10,945 bases of DNA from Campylobacteraceae bacterium (lineage in GTDB: Bacteria; Campylobacterota; Campylobacteria; Campylobacterales; Sulfurospirillaceae): positions 1 to 10,945 of the forward strand of contig JALUMJ010000075.1 in NCBI GenBank assembly GCA_027040375.1. Direction: 5' to 3'. Under the pieces are notes generated by a model. That model was not told where the DNA came from. It worked only from the letters and a program-made list of their open reading frames with translations, and searched no databases. The translations under genes were made by a program, and so were the position numbers. How positions within the stretch are numbered: position 1 is the stretch's first letter; each line of letters begins with the position of its first letter. Shown here piece by piece: positions 2,246 to 9,281 of this stretch.

Positions 2246-3559
2246 ATGAACAAAAAACTACACTTAGTAAGCTTAGGATGCAACAAAAATTTAGTAGATT
2301 CTGAAGTGATGCTTGGACGACTTAGAGATTATGAATTAACAGATGATGCTAGCAGTGCTGATGTTTTGATAGTAAATACTTGTGGATTTATAGGAGCAGC
2401 AAAAGAAGAGAGTCTGGACACCATATTTTCGCTGCATGGACAAAGAAAGAAAGATTCACTTTTGGTTGTGAGCGGTTGCCTAACGCAAAGGTATAGAGAA
2501 GAATTAGAAAAAGAGCTTAAAGAAGTTGACCTTTTTACTGGTGTTGGAGATTATAACAAGATAGATGAAATCATAAATAAAAAACAAAATATATTTTCAA
2601 ATTCAACTTATCTTATAGATGATGAACAAAGGGTAATAACTGGCTCAAATCATCATACTTATGTAAAGTTAAGCGAGGGCTGCAATCAAACTTGTAGTTT
2701 TTGTGCCATACCCGGTTTTAAGGGAAAGTTACTCTCAAGGAGCTTAGAATCTGTAAAAAAAGAGCTAGTGCGACTAAGAGCGCAAGGATATTATGATTTT
2801 AGTTTTATCTCACAAGACAGCAGTTCGTATTTAAGAGATTTAGATGAAAAAGAGGGGCTGATAAAACTCATAGATATGGTTGAAAATATAGAAGGCGTAA
2901 AAAGTGCTAGGATTTTATATCTTTACCCGACTACAACATCAAACGAGCTTCTCCAAAAGATAATTGATTCAAAAGTTTTTCATAATTATTTTGATATGCC
3001 AATCCAACATATTAATAGTGATATGCTAAAAAGGATGAAAAGAGGAGCTAGCAAAGAGCGAATACTCGAACTTTTAAATATTATGAGGGCATCTGAAGAT
3101 AGTTTTTTAAGGACTGGTTTTATAGTTGGGCATCCAGGCGAAAGTGATGATGAGTTTGAGGAATTATGCTCTTTTGTGGAGGATTTTGATTTTGATAGAG
3201 TTAGCATCTTTTCATATTCAGATGAAGAAGATACACCAGCTTACACTATGGAAGATAAGATATCGCAGGAAACCATAAACAAAAGAATTGAAATCTTAAA
3301 TGAGATAATTGAGAAAAAAACACAAAAAAGTCTTGAAAAAGAGATAGGCAAAGAGCTGATCTTAGTGACTGAGGGGCAAAGTAGCGAACATGAACTTTTC
3401 ATAGGAGCCAAAAAATTATCTTGGGATAGAGAGATTGATGGCGAAATTCTTATAAATGATTCCCAAATCGGTGAACTTGAAATCAGTAAATGCTACAAAG
3501 CAAAGATAACTGAATTAGCAGGAGATAAGCTACTTGCAACAGTTACCGCAACTGCATAA
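2246..3559 (+). CDS. rimO: Ribosomal protein S12 methylthiotransferase RimO
   Basis: RimO is a radical-SAM enzyme with two iron-sulfur clusters that adds a methylthio group to a conserved aspartate of ribosomal protein S12. Domains in order: the N-terminal methylthiotransferase domain with cluster cysteines C12 (GCNKN), C46 (NTCGF) and C78 (SGCLTQR); the radical-SAM domain with the CxxxCxxC motif at C146, C150 and C153; and a C-terminal TRAM domain from about residue 370. The [10 protein letters not shown] start and the [12 protein letters not shown] segment separate RimO from its paralogue MiaB, which is also in this window. At 437 residues it is full length. I prefer ATG 2246, with GGA 7 bases upstream, over the in-frame ATG 2234, which overlaps panC and lacks a ribosome site. 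The start lies 2 bp after the panC stop, so the two are co-transcribed. Confidence 0.96.
3520..3524 (+). promoter_or_regulatory. Ribosome binding site deciding the TTG start of tilS
   Basis: AGGAG sits within the rimO coding region nine bases before TTG 3534. No ATG is available before the PP-loop motif of tilS, so this strong site is what fixes the non-ATG start and the 26 bp overlap with rimO. Confidence 0.7.
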
Positions 3560-4547
3560 ATCTACTGTAGATTTTTTAAAAAAAAATAAGAATCTTTTGG
3601 CATTTTCTGCTGGGGTTGATTCTAGTGCCTTATTTTTTATACTTAAATCCCTTGGTATTGAGTTTGACTTGGCGATAGTTGATTATAATACAAGAGTCCA
3701 AAGCAAAGATGAAGTTAGATACGCTAAAGAGTTATCTAATTCATACAAAAAGAAACTTTTTTTACATACATGTAAGCTCGAAAGCGCAAATTTTGAGCAT
3801 AATGCAAGGCAGGAGAGATATGGGTTTTTTACTAAAGTCATAAAAGAAAACGGCTACACAAACTTACTTACGGCTCATCATCTAAATGATAAATTAGAAT
3901 GGTTCTTGATGCAACTTGGCAAAGGAAGTGGTTTGGTTGAGATGATTGGCATGAGTGAAATAGAAAAAAGAGAGGACTTTAACATAGTAAGACCACTCCT
4001 ACATGTAAGCAAAAAATCACTTAAAAATTTTCTCTTAGCAAATGATATAAGGTATTTTATAGATGAAAGCAATAGCGATTTTAAATATACTAGAAATCAG
4101 ATAAGAGAAAAATATTCAAACTCTTTTATAAAAGATTTTGAAAGTGGATTGGTAAAAAGTTTTGAGTATTTAGATGCTGATATAAATCTTATTTTGCCAA
4201 AAAAAGAGTTGAGAATCAAAAATCTCTTTGTCATCAAAAGAGATAAAGAAGATTTGAAAAATATAAGACAAATTGATAAAATTGTCAAAAAATTAGGAGC
4301 TCTCCTCAGTGCATCTGCAAGAACCGAAATAACAAGAACAAAAGATTGTGTGATAAGTGGTAAAATTGCGATAGTTTTTGAGAAGGATTTTATATTTATC
4401 TCACCTTTTATAAAAGCAAATATGCCAAAATATTTTAAAGAATCTTGCAGGCTAAATCAGATACCTACTAAAGTAAGACCATATTTACATAGTGAAAGAT
4501 TTGATATTATTTCTTTAAGGCACGAAGTCCAAAAACTTTTATCTTAA
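3534..4547 (+). CDS. tilS: tRNA(Ile)-lysidine synthetase
   Basis: TilS converts C34 of tRNA-Ile(CAU) to lysidine using ATP and lysine, so that the tRNA reads AUA rather than AUG. The 337-residue product has the PP-loop ATPase motif at 25-30, the HNARQERY segment at 89-96, [12 protein letters not shown] at 113-124, and the FIDESN...YTRNQIR region at 176-191, all typical of TilS. The PP-loop reads SAGVDS, with alanine for the usual first glycine of SGGxDS. The C-terminal part is divergent and short. The start is TTG 3534, set by AGGAG at 3520-3524 nine bases upstream; it lies inside rimO, a 26 bp overlap that suggests translational coupling. The 3' end overlaps by 41 bp the convergent gene on the other strand. 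Confidence 0.93.
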
Positions 4548-5049
4548 ATGTAGAATTTATTGTTTTTCCGTTCGATTTTAAATCAATCGGAAAATCAGCT
4601 TGGATTATATTTTGATAGTGATTTAAGCCATCTAAAAATTTGTAAAAATTAACAGGTGTTTTTAGAGTTGATGTAACATTTAATTCATAAATTCTAAACT
4701 CTTTTTTATATATGCTTTTTTTTACTTCTTTTAGTGAAACTTTGTTAAAAAATTTATTTGCAAATGTCACAAACTCATCTTTTCTAAACTCGTGTTTAAA
4801 AGAATCAAAAACTTTTTTATTTTTAATATTTAAATTTTTTAACTCTTTCATCCTACCATCCAAAACATTTTGCACTCTTACCTTATGAACGACTGCGCTA
4901 TTGTATTGACCCCTGTAAACTCTATATTTCTTTACATTTGGCAATATTAGAACTAGAATCAAAACAAGAGTGGTAACTATAAAAATCGATAAAAATATCA
5001 GTAGCTTTATGATGTTTATCTTTTCCAAACTTCTATCTGCATTATTCAC
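4507..5049 (-). CDS. PilO-like inner-membrane protein (type IV pilus/competence alignment complex)
   Basis: This 180-residue protein has a short charged cytoplasmic N-terminus (1-11), one strong membrane segment (about 12-37), a predicted coiled-coil (about 40-75), and a C-terminal domain whose order of strands and helices (KEFRIYELNVTST at about 116-128, then a helix KTPVNFYKFLDGLNHY, then two more strands) fits the ferredoxin-like fold of PilO. PilO pairs with PilN in the periplasm and links the cytoplasmic PilM ring to the outer-membrane secretin. Sequence similarity is not decisive; the call rests on topology, size and position after PilM- and PilN-like genes. GspM of type II secretion is the main alternative. 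The start is GTG 5049, with no nearby ATG and GGA about 8-9 bases upstream. It overlaps the PilN-like gene by 8 bp and tilS (convergent) by 41 bp. Confidence 0.6.
   Translation of the reverse strand: MNNADRSLEKINIIKLLIFLSIFIVTTLVLILVLILPNVKKYRVYRGQYNSAVVHKVRVQNVLDGRMKELKNLNIKNKKVFDSFKHEFRKDEFVTFANKFFNKVSLKEVKKSIYKKEFRIYELNVTSTLKTPVNFYKFLDGLNHYQNIIQADFPIDLKSNGKTINSTFKIKVFGLRALKK
4564..4594. repeat. Imperfect inverted repeat just after the tilS stop
   Basis: TTTTCCG (4564-4570) pairs perfectly with CGGAAAA (4588-4594), and inside it GATTT pairs with AAATC around a single T. A 3 by 3 internal mismatch separates the two stems. It starts 16 bases after the tilS stop codon and lies within the coding region of the converging PilO-like gene. 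No T-run follows the stem on either strand, so it is not a classical intrinsic terminator. It could be a weak terminator or an RNA 3'-end stabiliser for tilS, or chance. Confidence 0.35.
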
Positions 5050-5566
5050 TGAAGCTATCCATTGTTGTTATTTTATTTGTGCTAACAAAATTATACCAAC
5101 CCTTTGGAGTCAGGTAAAACATAGTATTACTTGTTGAAAAGATTGATTTTAAAGGAGCAGATAAAAGAAAATTAAAAGAATCTTTAGTGGGAGTTTTTCC
5201 ATATATAATCAAAGAATCTTTTTTGATAATAACTCTGCTAAGAGTAATCTGATCAGGAACCAAGTCAAAAAGATTTTTCATACTATCTTTCAAAAGAGTA
5301 TTGCTAGAAAATATCTCCTCTCCAAGTGATTTTTGTCTTAAAAGGTACTCCATAAAATCATCTTTTTCGTTAATTTTTTTATCAAGCATAACTCTTTCAT
5401 TATTTATTCTAATAGTATCTTTTTTATATATTGCTATTTTAACGAGCAAGAAAATACCAAAGGCAATCAACAAGAAAGATATGAAAGCTATAAAAGCTAT
5501 CCATATCTTAGAAAATGCAGAAAATAGATGTTTTTCTCTTGGTTTTATAAAGCTATAACTAGTCAT
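5042..5566 (-). CDS. PilN-like inner-membrane protein
   Basis: The 174-residue protein has a 20-residue cytoplasmic tail, a membrane segment at about 22-46, a coiled-coil at 48-75, and a periplasmic domain. The stretch LFDLVPDQITLSRVIIKKDSLIIYG (about 99-123) is the pattern typical of PilN/GspL periplasmic domains: a helix, then VP, then two strands describing what is calculated on the inner face. The tail contains SFIKPRE (5-11), which resembles the INLLPWRE motif with which PilN binds PilM. This supports, but does not prove, pairing with the upstream PilM-like protein. The ATG at 5566 overlaps the PilM-like gene by 8 bp, and its own end overlaps the PilO-like gene by 8 bp, implying coupled translation and probably fixed stoichiometry. 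It could instead be a transformation-specific (Cts-type) protein of Campylobacterota. Confidence 0.65.
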   Translation of the reverse strand: MTSYSFIKPREKHLFSAFSKIWIAFIAFISFLLIAFGIFLLVKIAIYKKDTIRINNERVMLDKKINEKDDFMEYLLRQKSLGEEIFSSNTLLKDSMKNLFDLVPDQITLSRVIIKKDSLIIYGKTPTKDSFNFLLSAPLKSIFSTSNTMFYLTPKGWYNFVSTNKITTMDSFSE

Positions 5567-6596
5567 AGATTTCCTTTATGGACATATCACAAACCATCTC
5601 ACTAACATCTATCTTATGCATTTCTAAATCCAAATACAAGTCTTCTTCTAGACTTTGGATTATCTCTTTACTCATATCATAGCCATCAAAAATAACCATA
5701 TTTTCTACAAAATCACTCTTGTAAGCTGGGTTATTATAATATTCTTTTAACGCTCTATTTAAAAATTTAAATATATGCAAATCTCGCCCATACAAAGCTA
5801 TATCTTCCATGTCCACATCATCATCTTCGTCTTCGTAATCAACCGTGCCTTGGGTGCCATCTGTATTTAAAAATTCCTCACTTTGAAGATCATCATCTAG
5901 CGTGTCGAGTTCACTCAAATCCATCATCTCATCGTCAGCCTGTGGTTTTTCATCTAAGGTTGCTAGATTTTCAACACCCTGTGCTTCCTCTTCTTCTTCC
6001 CAGTTTTCAACACTTTCAGCACTATCAAGGCCATCTTCTATGATTATTTTATAAAACACACCAAATTCTAATGTGCCCTCTTTAAATACTGCCAAGGTAA
6101 CGGAGTCTTTTTGATTAAGTAAATAAAGAGTAGATTTAATTTTTAACTTATGCTCAGTAAGAAGAGTATGCAAAAGAGCAAAAGGAGAATATATAAAATC
6201 TAATCCTACCTTTGAGTACTTTTTGTGCATCCAATTGATATCTATAAATGAGGCGTAAGCCGACCAAGTGTCAAATTTTACACTTTTTATGTTTTTAAAA
6301 TCAACATTAAATTTTGTAAAATCTTCTGCTTGCACACCTTTTATAGCGCCTTGTCCCATAGAGTCTAGCAAAAAGGCAATATAAACAAAATTGTATTTAT
6401 CTTGCAGTGATGTGAGGTAATCTTCTAAATCTTTGCTTAAAAATTCTGCATTTGGTTTTAGGGGAAAAATCTTTTTAAACTTATCCTTTTGTTTTGAGTT
6501 TTTCATAGCCTTGCAAAATACTTTGTACGAGTTATCCTCTGCTACAATACTTATAAAAAGATTTGTAAAATATTTTTGCATCATACTAGAAGACAA
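5559..6596 (-). CDS. PilM-like cytoplasmic protein with large acidic insert
   Basis: The 345-residue protein has no signal peptide or membrane segment. Its outline fits the actin-like PilM/FtsA fold: an N-terminal FISIVAEDNSYKVFCKA strand pair (14-30), a second strand-rich segment STLYLLNQKDSVTLAVFKEGTLEFGVFYK (about 155-183), and a C-terminal helix plus ENMVIFDGYDMSKEI, resembling the PilM region that precedes its final helix. The usual phosphate-binding glycines are not obvious, so nucleotide binding is uncertain. Between about 187 and 268 lies a low-complexity stretch with some 35 Asp/Glu and only one Lys, which I do not know from standard PilM. The start is TTG 6596, preceded by AGGA eight bases upstream; ATG 6584 would remove four residues. 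PilN- and PilO-like genes follow with 8 bp overlaps. GspL of type II secretion is less likely because there is no fused membrane segment. Confidence 0.55.
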   Translation of the reverse strand: MSSSMMQKYFTNLFISIVAEDNSYKVFCKAMKNSKQKDKFKKIFPLKPNAEFLSKDLEDYLTSLQDKYNFVYIAFLLDSMGQGAIKGVQAEDFTKFNVDFKNIKSVKFDTWSAYASFIDINWMHKKYSKVGLDFIYSPFALLHTLLTEHKLKIKSTLYLLNQKDSVTLAVFKEGTLEFGVFYKIIIEDGLDSAESVENWEEEEEAQGVENLATLDEKPQADDEMMDLSELDTLDDDLQSEEFLNTDGTQGTVDYEDEDDDVDMEDIALYGRDLHIFKFLNRALKEYYNNPAYKSDFVENMVIFDGYDMSKEIIQSLEEDLYLDLEMHKIDVSEMVCDMSIKEIYD

Positions 6597-6660: not shown

Positions 6661-7113
6661 TTAAAATAATTGTTGATATAGTTGCTTAAATTTATCATAC
6701 ATTTGCTTGGCATTTTTCACTAAGTCCTTATCCGTGAGCTTTGTTGGTACCAATTTTTCATAGTTACCCATCATCACTTCACATATCAACTTGACACGAA
6801 CTTTATCTCCATCTTTATACAGTTTTTTTGAACTTATTTTATCTATTTTATCAAAATATTCATTGCCAGTTTTTATATAATCCACATACTCTTTTGCGAT
6901 TTTACTTTGCGTTAAAACCGTAAAAGCCATTTTATTGTAAGAGTCCTCATCATATGCTTTTTTTGCTAATTCATAAGCCTTGGAATAGTTTCCTATAAAA
7001 TAATAAAATCTTGATTCAAATGAATTTTGATACGAAGAATTTCCCATAAAATAAATGGCACTAAGAGATAAAAATAAAAAAGTCACAACTACTAATACAA
7101 TTTTAGATAGCAT
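6661..7113 (-). CDS. Small membrane-anchored protein with a TPR-like helical pair
   Basis: The 150-residue product starts with an uncleaved signal anchor or signal peptide (about 4-23) and then has a soluble, lysine-rich helical domain, probably periplasmic. Residues 36-69 (YYFIGNYSKAYELAKKAYDED...) have the spacing of one tetratricopeptide-like helical hairpin, and GNYEKL at about 116-121 repeats the G-N-Y theme. I do not recognise a named family. It overlaps the acyltransferase gene by 11 bp and is followed, after a 64 bp gap, by the PilM-like gene, so it is in the same transcription unit. TPR proteins often accompany pilus machines (PilF/PilW type pilotins), which makes a role with the PilMNO-like trio possible, but this is inference. 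Its ATG at 7113 is the only sensible start. Confidence 0.75.
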   Translation of the reverse strand: MLSKIVLVVVTFLFLSLSAIYFMGNSSYQNSFESRFYYFIGNYSKAYELAKKAYDEDSYNKMAFTVLTQSKIAKEYVDYIKTGNEYFDKIDKISSKKLYKDGDKVRVKLICEVMMGNYEKLVPTKLTDKDLVKNAKQMYDKFKQLYQQLF

Positions 7114-7744
7114 TTTCCATCAACCTCTCTTTTATCAATTTTTTTGACTCTTCAATCGTTAAATCATCTAAATAAAATGGAACTCCCACAAAAATATCAA
7201 GTGTGCTAAATGGCTTTGGAATCACAAATTTATCCCAACTTTTCATCTGCCAATACGAAGTAGGTTTACAGTTTAAAGTCACGATTGGCACATTTTTCTT
7301 CTTTGAAATCAAGACAACACCATCCGCCACACTATGCCTTGGGCCCTTTGGTCCATCAGGCGTAATTCCTAAATCTCTTTTTTTAGCAATAGATTTAAAA
7401 GAAGATTTCAAAGCTTTAATTGCTCCATTTGTTGAACTCCCTCGAATGGAGCCTCCTTTGTATAAACCAACAACTTTTGCTATCAATTCACCATCAAAAT
7501 GCGCGCTTATGATAGTGTCTATTTCTGTGCTTTGCCTAAAATCAATATAACCTTTTAATAGCGACAAAAGCTCACCATGCCAAAAAGCAAAGATTGCAGG
7601 TTTTGGTATATCTTTCGCTTTTGTTACGCTGTGAAAATTTTTCTTACATGTAAAATATAAAACATTTAAAAAAATAAAAACTAATCTTGGTGCAACTTTT
7701 AATAATATTTTTCGCTTAAAATCTTTACTAAATAACTTCGCCAT
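7103..7744 (-). CDS. lpxJ: DUF374 lysophospholipid-acyltransferase-type protein, probable lipid A secondary acyltransferase LpxJ
   Basis: The 213-residue protein is a compact DUF374 acyltransferase with a hydrophobic N-terminal stretch (about 17-32) for membrane association. Visible motifs: FWHGE at 54-58 with the likely catalytic histidine 56, SAHFDGE at 80-86, RGSS at 101-104, TPDGPKGPR at 128-136, and [11 protein letters not shown] at 170-180. All are hallmarks of the family. In Helicobacter pylori the DUF374 gene beside miaB (jhp0255/HP0270) was named LpxJ and shown to add a secondary acyl chain to lipid A in place of LpxM; I recall this and rely on the same gene order here. The ATG at 7744 overlaps the miaB end by 17 bp, and the next gene overlaps its end by 11 bp. 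The family assignment is firm, the precise acyl substrate is not. Confidence 0.85.
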
Positions 7745-9029
7745 ACATTGACAAACGCTTAGGGTTTGTAATCCTCACTGTTTTAATCATCCCAAGCCAT
7801 TCATCTTTGCCTTCAACTTGTACTAGTGCATTATTGTCGCTTTTGCCTGCTAGTAGTCCATTGTTTCTTTTTTCTTCAAAATATACTTTGTATTCTTTAT
7901 CTTTTTTTGTCAAAGAGATTTCATCTAAAATCTTCTCTTGCAAATCTTGAAGTCTTTGCAATCTTTGCGATGCAACTTGCGGATCAACTTGGTTTGTAAA
8001 TTCAGCAGCCTTCGTTAAAGGTCTTGGAGAGTATTTGAAAGAAAAAATCTGCTCAAATTTTACTTTTTTCATCACATCCAGCGTATCTTCAAAATCTTCA
8101 TCACTCTCACCTGGAAATCCCACGATGATATCTGTACTGATTGAAGCATCTGGCACCATACTTCTTAGTTTTAAAGCTCTATTTAAAAACCACTCTTTTG
8201 AGTAACCTCTCTTCATCTTTTCAAGCAGACGAGTAGAGCCACTTTGTAATGGCATATGCATAGATTTACAAACTTTTGGATTTTTTGCAAATACTTCCAA
8301 AAATTTATCGTCCATATGCAAAGGGTGTGGAGATGTGAACCTGATTCTTCGAACCTCATCAATCTCACTCACCATATCCAATAAATCACTAAAATCCATC
8401 TTTTGGTGTGCCTTATCGCTAAATCTTCTGCCATAATTATTAACATTTTGGCCAAGTAAAAATATCTCTTTAGCGCCATTTTTTGCAGCTTTTCTAGCTT
8501 CATTTATTATCAATTCTGCTGGTATAGAAATCTCATCACCTCTAGTGTGAGGCACTATGCAATATGTACATTTTTTATCACAACCGATAGATATATTTAC
8601 AAAAGCTTTGTATTGATTATTTCTAAATTCACTAAAAGCGTAATTGCTCTCATCATAATCTATATCAACGCTTATAAATTTATCACTCTTTATCGCTTTT
8701 GTAATCTTAGAAACATTTCTAGCACCAAGTACAAAGTTTACTTCTGGAGCTCTTTTAAATATATCTTTCCCAAGATGGCTGGCACTACACCCACAAACAC
8801 CTATCTTTGCACCATCTTTTTTATGCTTATTAAAAACGCCAATCTCCGAAAAGAGTTTACTCACAGGCTTTTCTCTTACGCTACATGTATTGATCAAAAT
8901 CAAATCAGCTTCACTTGAGTCATCAGTTAAGCGATAATCTTCTTTATCTTCAAGTTCTGCTATTATATGCTCGCTATCACGAACATTCATAGCGCATCCA
9001 AGAGTTTCAATATATAATTTTTTTGACAA
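7728..9029 (-). CDS. miaB: tRNA-2-methylthio-N6-dimethylallyladenosine synthase MiaB
   Basis: MiaB is the radical-SAM methylthiotransferase that converts i6A37 to ms2i6A37 in tRNAs reading UNN codons, which stabilises codon-anticodon pairing. The 433-residue product has N-terminal cluster cysteines C12 (LGCAMN), C49 (NTCSVRE) and C81 (GCSAS), the radical-SAM motif [15 protein letters not shown] with C150, C154 and C157, the GQNVNNYG segment near 198-205 that is diagnostic for MiaB, and a C-terminal TRAM domain from about 372. CAMN replaces the CQMN common elsewhere. The start is TTG 9029, with AAGG (9040-9037) seven bases upstream that overlaps the stop of the preceding gene. The RimO paralogue lies in the converging operon, so the two methylthiotransferases of this genome sit about 4 kb apart. 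Confidence 0.97.
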
Positions 9030-9040
9030 TTTTATACCTT
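9030..9040 (-). promoter_or_regulatory. Ribosome binding site deciding the TTG start of miaB
   Basis: On the minus strand AAGG (9040-9037) lies seven bases before TTG 9029 and is formed partly by the TAA stop codon of the HP0268-like gene. Stop and ribosome site overlap, which favours re-initiation from one gene to the next. The TTG places the conserved ETLGC motif at the expected distance from the N-terminus. Confidence 0.65.
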
Positions 9041-9281
9041 AGAGGATGTGTATTTCATACATGTAATCATCATCACCTAGTGCATACTTAACTTCTCTAA
9101 GATACACGCTTTGGTCTTTTTCTTCAAAATACTCAACTAAAGCTACCAAATCTTTATGAGAATTTTCCTTATCAAAATAAAATATCTTTTGTCCCTCTTT
9201 TTGAACAGCTTCTACTATCTTTTCTAATTTTATACTTTTTGGTTTGCTTTCAAGATTAACTCTTGCTAATTTTAATTCCAT
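9039..9281 (-). CDS. HP0268-family small nuclease
   Basis: This 80-residue cytoplasmic protein matches the Helicobacter pylori HP0268 family in length, in the charged beginning MELKLARVNLESKPKSIKLE, in the central IFYFDKENSHKDL (33-45), in the EYFEEKDQSVYLREV segment (50-64) and in the terminal YEIHIL. HP0268 was reported to have an Smr-like fold and to act as a DNA-nicking enzyme and purine-preferring ribonuclease; the biological role is unclear. The family is essentially confined to Campylobacterota and, as I recall, lies next to miaB there, as here. That neighbourhood suggests, without proving, a link to RNA processing or modification. It is the first gene of the seven-gene minus-strand operon. 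ATG 9281 is preceded by AAGG six bases upstream. Confidence 0.9.
   Translation of the reverse strand: MELKLARVNLESKPKSIKLEKIVEAVQKEGQKIFYFDKENSHKDLVALVEYFEEKDQSVYLREVKYALGDDDYMYEIHIL

Follow-up and report, generated by a model that had tools for sequence, protein, structure and literature searches.

The window analysed here, i.e., the whole stretch of 10,945 nucleotides that forms contig C75 (JALUMJ010000075.1) of a Campylobacteraceae bacterium, carries a cassette of three genes which, with a probability of about 0.94, corresponds to fcpM-fcpN-fcpO, the genes of the known flagellar cage of Campylobacterota. A flagellar cage of PilM/PilN/PilO-type proteins being already known, the window cassette is most likely one more instance of it, and the three genes were most likely borrowed from pilus machines in the course of evolution. 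The original prediction had recognized a PilM-PilN-PilO-like set in this order, and had suggested that it may provide the inner-membrane platform missing from the Cts/Com DNA-uptake machine, or that of "a separate envelope device". The second of these proposals agrees with the FcpMNO flagellar cage as published (PMC11870540).

The flagellar cage and its pilus-type proteins

In Campylobacter jejuni, CJJ81176_0481-0479 were identified as FcpM, FcpN and FcpO, and deletion of fcpMNO leads to the disappearance of the 34-unit peripheral cage and to a lower stator occupancy; the operon is located after miaB and its distribution tracks the flagellar gene set, not that of the type IV pilus (T4P) (preprint PMC11870540). 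The H. pylori cage was also reported to consist of PilM, PilN and PilO homologues (PMC11237671), and a 2026 review lists FcpM/N/O as scaffold proteins (PMC13023049). The cage density was left unassigned in a 2025 structure of the C. jejuni motor (PMC12222027).

The window cassette resembles that of C. jejuni (PMC11870540) in its gene order, its position after miaB, its PilM/PilN/PilO-type proteins and its co-occurrence with the flagellum, and it shares with the H. pylori cage (PMC11237671, PMC12472139) the use of remote pilus-protein homologues, located there around the stators. It differs from the C. jejuni locus, as known from the literature, by an additional gene of 150 amino acids (aa) between the DUF374 gene and fcpM. 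We take the C. jejuni gene cj0455c to be fcpN, from its position. A Cj0455c deletion mutant was described as non-motile and as partially rescued by the full-length gene (PMC11955535). By analogy with C. jejuni and H. pylori, the window cassette would serve as a cage here too.

Conservation of the locus and co-occurrence with the flagellum

The locus was followed in a sample of 200 genomes of the phylum, with the HP0268 family as landmark (positive in 199 of them), and 40 miaB/HP0268 loci (L005-L044) were read. When the window proteins were used as sole queries (phmmer, E<=1), all three genes were found in 25 of the 40 loci, in the order originally predicted; family profiles brought this number to 29, many of these rows having themselves gone into building the profiles. 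The loci with the cassette include those of Sulfurospirillum and Campylobacter concisus, and the nearest named one belongs to a metagenome-assembled genome labelled "Campylobacteraceae bacterium", with 96% identity in the middle protein, records of the window's own genome being possibly excluded. The 11 loci without the full set comprise four from family f4 and two from genus g20, both groups being FliG-less, three from family f7, one from family f9, and L010, from genome G001, in which FcpN lies on a different contig. The f7 and f9 exceptions are long, fused or diverged forms.

FliG_C was used as a marker of the flagellum and T2SSF (CtsF/PilC) as a marker of pilus or competence machines, with Fisher tests that ignore phylogeny. 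Among the 200 genomes, 185 were positive for FliG_C, 180 for T2SSF and 182 for FcpN (E<=0.001). The FcpN matches split into 177 strong and five weak ones (2.5e-5 to 7.5e-4), the latter being dropped from the strong count: one is the fused form of G122 (2.2e-4), and the other four (G026, G063, G152, G175) come from the FliG-less genus, where they fall in open frames far from lone FcpM and away from the cassette locus, and were treated as chance coiled-coil matches. Strong FcpN follows FliG closely (both in 176 genomes, FcpN only in one, G191, FliG only in nine, neither in 14; p=1e-14). Its relation to T2SSF shows no association (both in 158, FcpN only in 19, T2SSF only in 22, neither in one; p=0.48).

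The same picture arises from the genomes lacking one of the two markers. FliG is missing from 15 genomes, all of which have T2SSF, and 14 of them are without strong FcpN (10 with no match, four with a weak one). The 20 genomes without T2SSF all belong to genus g18, which we take to be Helicobacter, this name being unconfirmed; FliG is present in all 20 and FcpN in 19. Set against the likeness with the H. pylori cage, the g18 copies are strongly diverged (2e-32 with the FcpM profile and 4e-10 with the FcpO profile in L027). The exception, G148, has FliG and gave no match for HP0268, FcpN, FlhA or T2SSF; its genus-mates are also without T2SSF. The window's own genome is positive for FliG and FlhA as well as for T2SSF.

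Predicted folds and motifs

The cassette proteins are so divergent that annotation leaves them hypothetical, as had been anticipated: searches of Pfam and NCBIfam gave FcpM, FcpN and FcpO sub-threshold matches to unrelated families only. The AlphaFold2 model of FcpM (23-row alignment) reaches a predicted local distance difference test (pLDDT) score of 79.8 and a predicted template modelling (pTM) score of 0.75, residues 188-260 falling below 50 and being predicted as disordered. With Foldseek, its top match is an actin-fold protein of unknown function (E 3e-9), followed by PilM, and by FtsA further down; the PilM structures 5eoy and 5eou match at E 4e-9 with TM-scores of 0.44-0.46, one of them holding bound PilN residues 1-12. 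The FcpO model (pLDDT 90.0, pTM 0.60) retrieves PilO 3jc8_Oa (E 5.6e-5) and 5uvr (E 1e-3) as its only two matches at E<=0.001. The structure prediction that had been suggested as a check thus returned PilM and PilO among the matches, and these models support a PilM-like fold for FcpM and a PilO-like fold for FcpO.

Two details of the original prediction were borne out in part. The first is a cytoplasmic P-R-E motif in the middle protein: in an alignment of 26 relatives, S5 is invariant and P9 and K12 are nearly so, whereas E11 is not conserved, so that the motif is better written P-R-x-K. The second is the actin-like nature of the first protein, which holds for the predicted fold. The nucleotide motif of the actin family, which we take to be D-x-G, is found by a crude pattern test in only 2 of 110 FcpM-profile matches within the first 50 residues and in 16 of 110 within residues 131-200, these matches including two lone forms, G191 and fused forms. 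Since D-x-G is rarely kept, an ATPase activity appears doubtful, and FcpM would be a scaffold rather than a working ATPase.

In comparison with PilM, PilN and PilO of the type IV pilus, with which it shares the predicted FcpM and FcpO folds and the gene order, the cassette lacks linked PilP/PilQ/PilB/PilC genes, and it differs by the rarity of D-x-G and the acidic linker in FcpM as well as by the P-R-x-K tail of FcpN. In the window's own genome, PF11104 (PilM_2) has a single match, a 463-aa protein that reads by eye as FtsA. The Pfam PilN model had no match in 14 genomes, a result put down to the insensitivity of the model and weighing neither way.

From these features, the following arrangement can be proposed. 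FcpN and FcpO would each cross the inner membrane once and pair with one another through their coiled coils and periplasmic domains as PilN and PilO do, FcpM would be a cytoplasmic adaptor of actin fold, presumably binding the N-terminal P-R-x-K tail of FcpN, and the three proteins, together with PflD, would build the peripheral units encircling the stator complexes.

Evidence weighing against the cage assignment

Several observations nevertheless weigh against this assignment. At the level of the sequences, the cassette proteins have no significant match to PilMNO in Pfam, NCBIfam or PDB sequence profiles, and the orthology to the C. jejuni and H. pylori genes rests on synteny, fold and literature. 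At the level of the folds, the best TM-scores with PilM and PilO stay low, at about 0.4-0.5 when taken over the query, phage-neck and other proteins come close behind PilO for FcpO (E 1e-3 and above), and the support from predicted folds covers FcpM and FcpO, FcpN being assigned by its motif and by topology read by eye. As regards distribution, the counts of FcpN against FliG and against T2SSF carry no phylogenetic correction, and nine FliG-positive genomes are without strong FcpN, namely G148 and eight genomes of family f7; for three of the latter (G030, G122, G127) the loci were read, and they contain the long FcpM-like open reading frame (ORF) described below. From the published work, C. 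jejuni fcpMNO was found by quantitative PCR to lie outside RpoN/FliA control (PMC11870540). In addition, loss of PilO or PilN enlarges the swim halos of H. pylori (PMC12472139), in contrast to the reduced motility of C. jejuni, so that the cage is not required for motility everywhere. To these points has to be added the presence of FcpM in genomes without FliG, which is also the basis of a further, additional reading.

FcpM in genomes without FliG

In genus g20 (family f3), in which the flagellum seems to have been lost, FliG is present in 0 of 14 genomes and FlhA is absent from the six tested; unexpectedly, all 14 carry an intact lone FcpM homologue of 243-260 aa, devoid of the acidic linker. 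This retention of an intact FcpM in a FliG-less genus is, as far as searched, new: the available parts of the literature on FcpM/FcpN/FcpO, the supplementary tables of the preprint aside, contain no mention of a lone FcpM. The gene adjoins tilS or the DUF374 gene, i.e., the usual FcpMNO site, and the g20 loci that were read, in part cut short by the end of a contig, gave no FcpN or FcpO profile match at E<=0.05, FcpO having been searched at the locus only. An alignment of the FcpM and lone FcpM profiles with hhalign gave a probability of 99.3% (E 4e-20) and is colinear over the length minus the linker. Moreover, G191, from another family, has no FliG or FlhA match and keeps all three genes at its miaB locus (L041 3888-5669), its FcpM of 261 aa being devoid of the linker.

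These observations make it rather probable that FcpM also acts independently of the flagellum, for instance in envelope, polarity or division scaffolding, the cage being one use of it; this reading is compatible with the cage assignment. It is favoured by the intact gene in every g20 genome and by the substitution rates of the closest pairs, in which lone FcpM is under purifying selection: dN/dS values of 0.008/0.096 and 0.010/0.051 in two close pairs and of 0.28/1.38 in the next one give ratios of about 0.08 and 0.20, and of 0.20 at dS 1.4. The three genes of G191 and the position of C. jejuni fcpM outside the flagellar regulators (PMC11870540) point in the same direction. On the other side, the median pN/pS of 0.58 (91 pairs), against 0.43 for TilS (66 pairs), shows that lone FcpM evolves fast, most of the pairs being saturated, and the FcpM profile recovers 12 of the 14 lone forms, the other two being seen only with a lone-FcpM profile. 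No FcpM or FcpN profile match was obtained in eight further genomes without FliG (G003, G058, G086, G096, G131, G139, G177, G196), an absence that is unproven since the same FcpM search also missed the lone forms of G026 and G183. Finally, with the other allele expressed, cj0455c, at the fcpN position, had no effect on cell shape and did not restore it (PMC5530802).

The lone form in g20 and the full linker-less set in G191 suggest that there may be an envelope scaffold, older than the pilus-derived cage or parallel to it, of which the cage would be one use. In most lineages, the acidic linker may for its part be linked to the use of FcpM in the motor: the peak fraction of D/E per 60 residues has a median of 0.45 in the 110 FcpM-profile matches and of 0.26 in the 14 lone forms. 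The linker was also considered as a strict flagellar mark and rejected as such, being weak or missing in the long or fused FcpM of the FliG-positive families f7 and f9 (0.22-0.32 in L017, L018, L029, L030 and L037).

Pilus and competence clusters elsewhere in the genomes

The proposal that the cassette supplies the Cts/Com DNA-uptake machine with its missing inner-membrane platform has the predicted PilM and PilO folds in its favour, and also the state of the window's own genome, in which the T2SSE/T2SSF pair lies on another contig whose end cuts the upstream part, so that nothing beyond E, F and a portion of a further gene is visible and no platform gene can be seen there. Besides the FcpN counts given above, including the 19 of 20 T2SSF-less genomes that have FcpN, the content of the T2SSF clusters argues against it. 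Outside the window's genome, 13 such clusters were read, four from FliG-less genomes (L162-L165, L167 extending L165) and nine (L169-L177) from eight flagellated genomes with FliG and strong FcpN, including G061 of the window's genus. All 13 (9/9 flagellated, 4/4 FliG-less) carry a large protein upstream of the secretin, of 506-525 aa in L162, L163 and L167 and of 497-513 aa in eight of the nine flagellated clusters, with shorter ORFs in L164 and L172, and 12 of the 13 (8/9 flagellated) have a PilO-like neighbour of about 220 aa. In L169, the second T2SSF cluster of G061, the large platform-type protein is present and the PilO-like neighbour gave no match.

The large protein has no significant Pfam match, and its description as PilM-N-like rests on the layout and on the fused pilMN of PMC11870540; the PilO-like neighbours of L163 and L165 have sub-threshold matches to Pfam PilO/T2SSM (E 0.004/0.018 and 0.012/0.024, respectively). 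On this basis of layout and sub-threshold matches, the pilus/competence machines seem to be equipped with a platform of their own, in addition to FcpMNO. The Fcp profiles had no match in the nine flagellated clusters at E<=0.01, and a single FcpO-profile match (E 4e-4) concerns the PilO-like neighbour of L162. With hhalign, probabilities against the cluster proteins were 0.4% for FcpM and the large protein (506-525 aa), 1.3% for FcpO and the PilO-like neighbour, and 13% for FcpN, which does not settle deep homology. The cassette also resembles GspL/GspM and the Cts/T4P clusters of Campylobacterota in general architecture and differs from them in its separate locus.

In the same line, the published C. 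jejuni deletions affect motility (PMC11870540, PMC11955535), and the available part of a competence paper does not mention PilM or PilN (PMC10046745). The platform proposal was therefore rejected on distribution and on the clusters' own platform-type genes, and is considered very improbable. A role of the cassette in a type IV pilus whose genes lie elsewhere in the genome is equally improbable, since the fold similarity of its proteins to PilM and PilO and the T2SSF of the genome are set against T4P clusters that carry their own pilMNOPQ and are distributed otherwise than fcpMNO (PMC11870540), and against 19 FcpN-positive genomes without T2SSF.

Organization of the locus and neighbouring genes

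The assignment as flagellar cage genes is accompanied by a conserved neighbourhood (Table 1). The window lies in a draft genome of 1.67 Mb, 91% complete, with the family label f1. Both internal junctions of fcpM-fcpN-fcpO show the 8 bp overlap that had been described, and the end of fcpO overlaps the convergent tilS by 41 bp. Upstream of fcpM, the 150-aa gene, the DUF374 gene, miaB and the HP0268-family gene are co-oriented with it; further neighbours are nusA and tilS (Pfam/NCBIfam) and rimO (by eye, from the ORF list). In agreement with the original prediction, no pilus-like gene, and hence no linked PilP, PilQ, PilB or PilC, was seen among the window ORFs (by eye) or the nine proteins scanned with Pfam.

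Table 1. Coordinates of the cassette, its neighbours and the FcpM-like genes of other genomes.
Feature	Position	Strand	Description
fcpM-like	5559..6596	-	345 aa ORF; predicted cytoplasmic actin fold (PilM/FtsA-like), acidic disordered linker at ~188-260
fcpN-like	5042..5566	-	174 aa ORF; short P-R-x-K tail; by eye, a single transmembrane helix and a coiled coil; C-terminal domain
fcpO-like	4507..5049	-	180 aa ORF; one long helix (transmembrane and coiled coil by eye), PilO-type alpha/beta domain
Conserved 150-aa protein gene	6661..7113	-	N-terminal hydrophobic segment, perhaps TPR-like helices (by eye); Pfam sub-threshold only
DUF374 (acyltransferase-type) gene	7103..7744	-	Pfam E 9e-21; conserved neighbour, outside the cage
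miaB	7728..9029	-	NCBIfam TIGR01574 E 3e-174; conserved landmark upstream of fcpMNO (PMC11870540)
HP0268-family gene	9039..9281	-	PF18618 E 2.6e-36; opens the co-oriented run
Long FcpM-like ORFs (family f7)	L017 2982-4562; L018 6293-7858; L037 6320-7906
Lone FcpM (genus g20)	L025 2982-3740; L026 7131-7892; L134 6997-7764; L135 6018-6779; L137 3699-4457; L138 5659-6438		Eight more loci, L154-L161

The profile of the 150-aa gene is found in 72 of the 200 genomes, all 72 being positive for FliG (p 0.001) and for strong FcpN (p 3e-5), again with phylogeny ignored, and the gene is missing from three g14 loci (L021, L022, L044) and from the g15 and g19 loci (L023, L024). In some lineages its product may be an additional protein associated with the cage, and it is a candidate accessory protein. 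In L041, the DUF374 gene is separated from fcpM by a 282-aa ORF (3053-3901) that reads by eye as tyrosine-recombinase-like; in L019 and like loci, a gap of similar size separates the 150-aa gene from fcpM.

The miaB locus of family f7 contains a single ORF of 521-528 aa with similarity to FcpM and, in two cases, a weak similarity to FcpN; this ORF probably corresponds to the fused form that a legend of PMC11870540 mentions for Arcobacter. In L024 (genome G020), the FcpM ORF ahead of an intact FcpN has only 181 aa (3026-3571) and is possibly interrupted. Two HP0268-family matches each were found in G008, G030, G106 and G187 (g11) and in G136 (g18), and one in the other positive genomes.

Significance

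Taken together, these data allow three genes that are hypothetical in genomes of the Sulfurospirillum, Sulfurimonas and Campylobacter type to be named as likely cage genes, and no longer to be counted among the missing components of competence. PMC11870540 states a "strict co-occurrence" with flagella, which the FliG-less carriers of FcpM qualify, and the lone FcpM of FliG-less genomes offers a way to ask whether the cage was built from a protein with another function.

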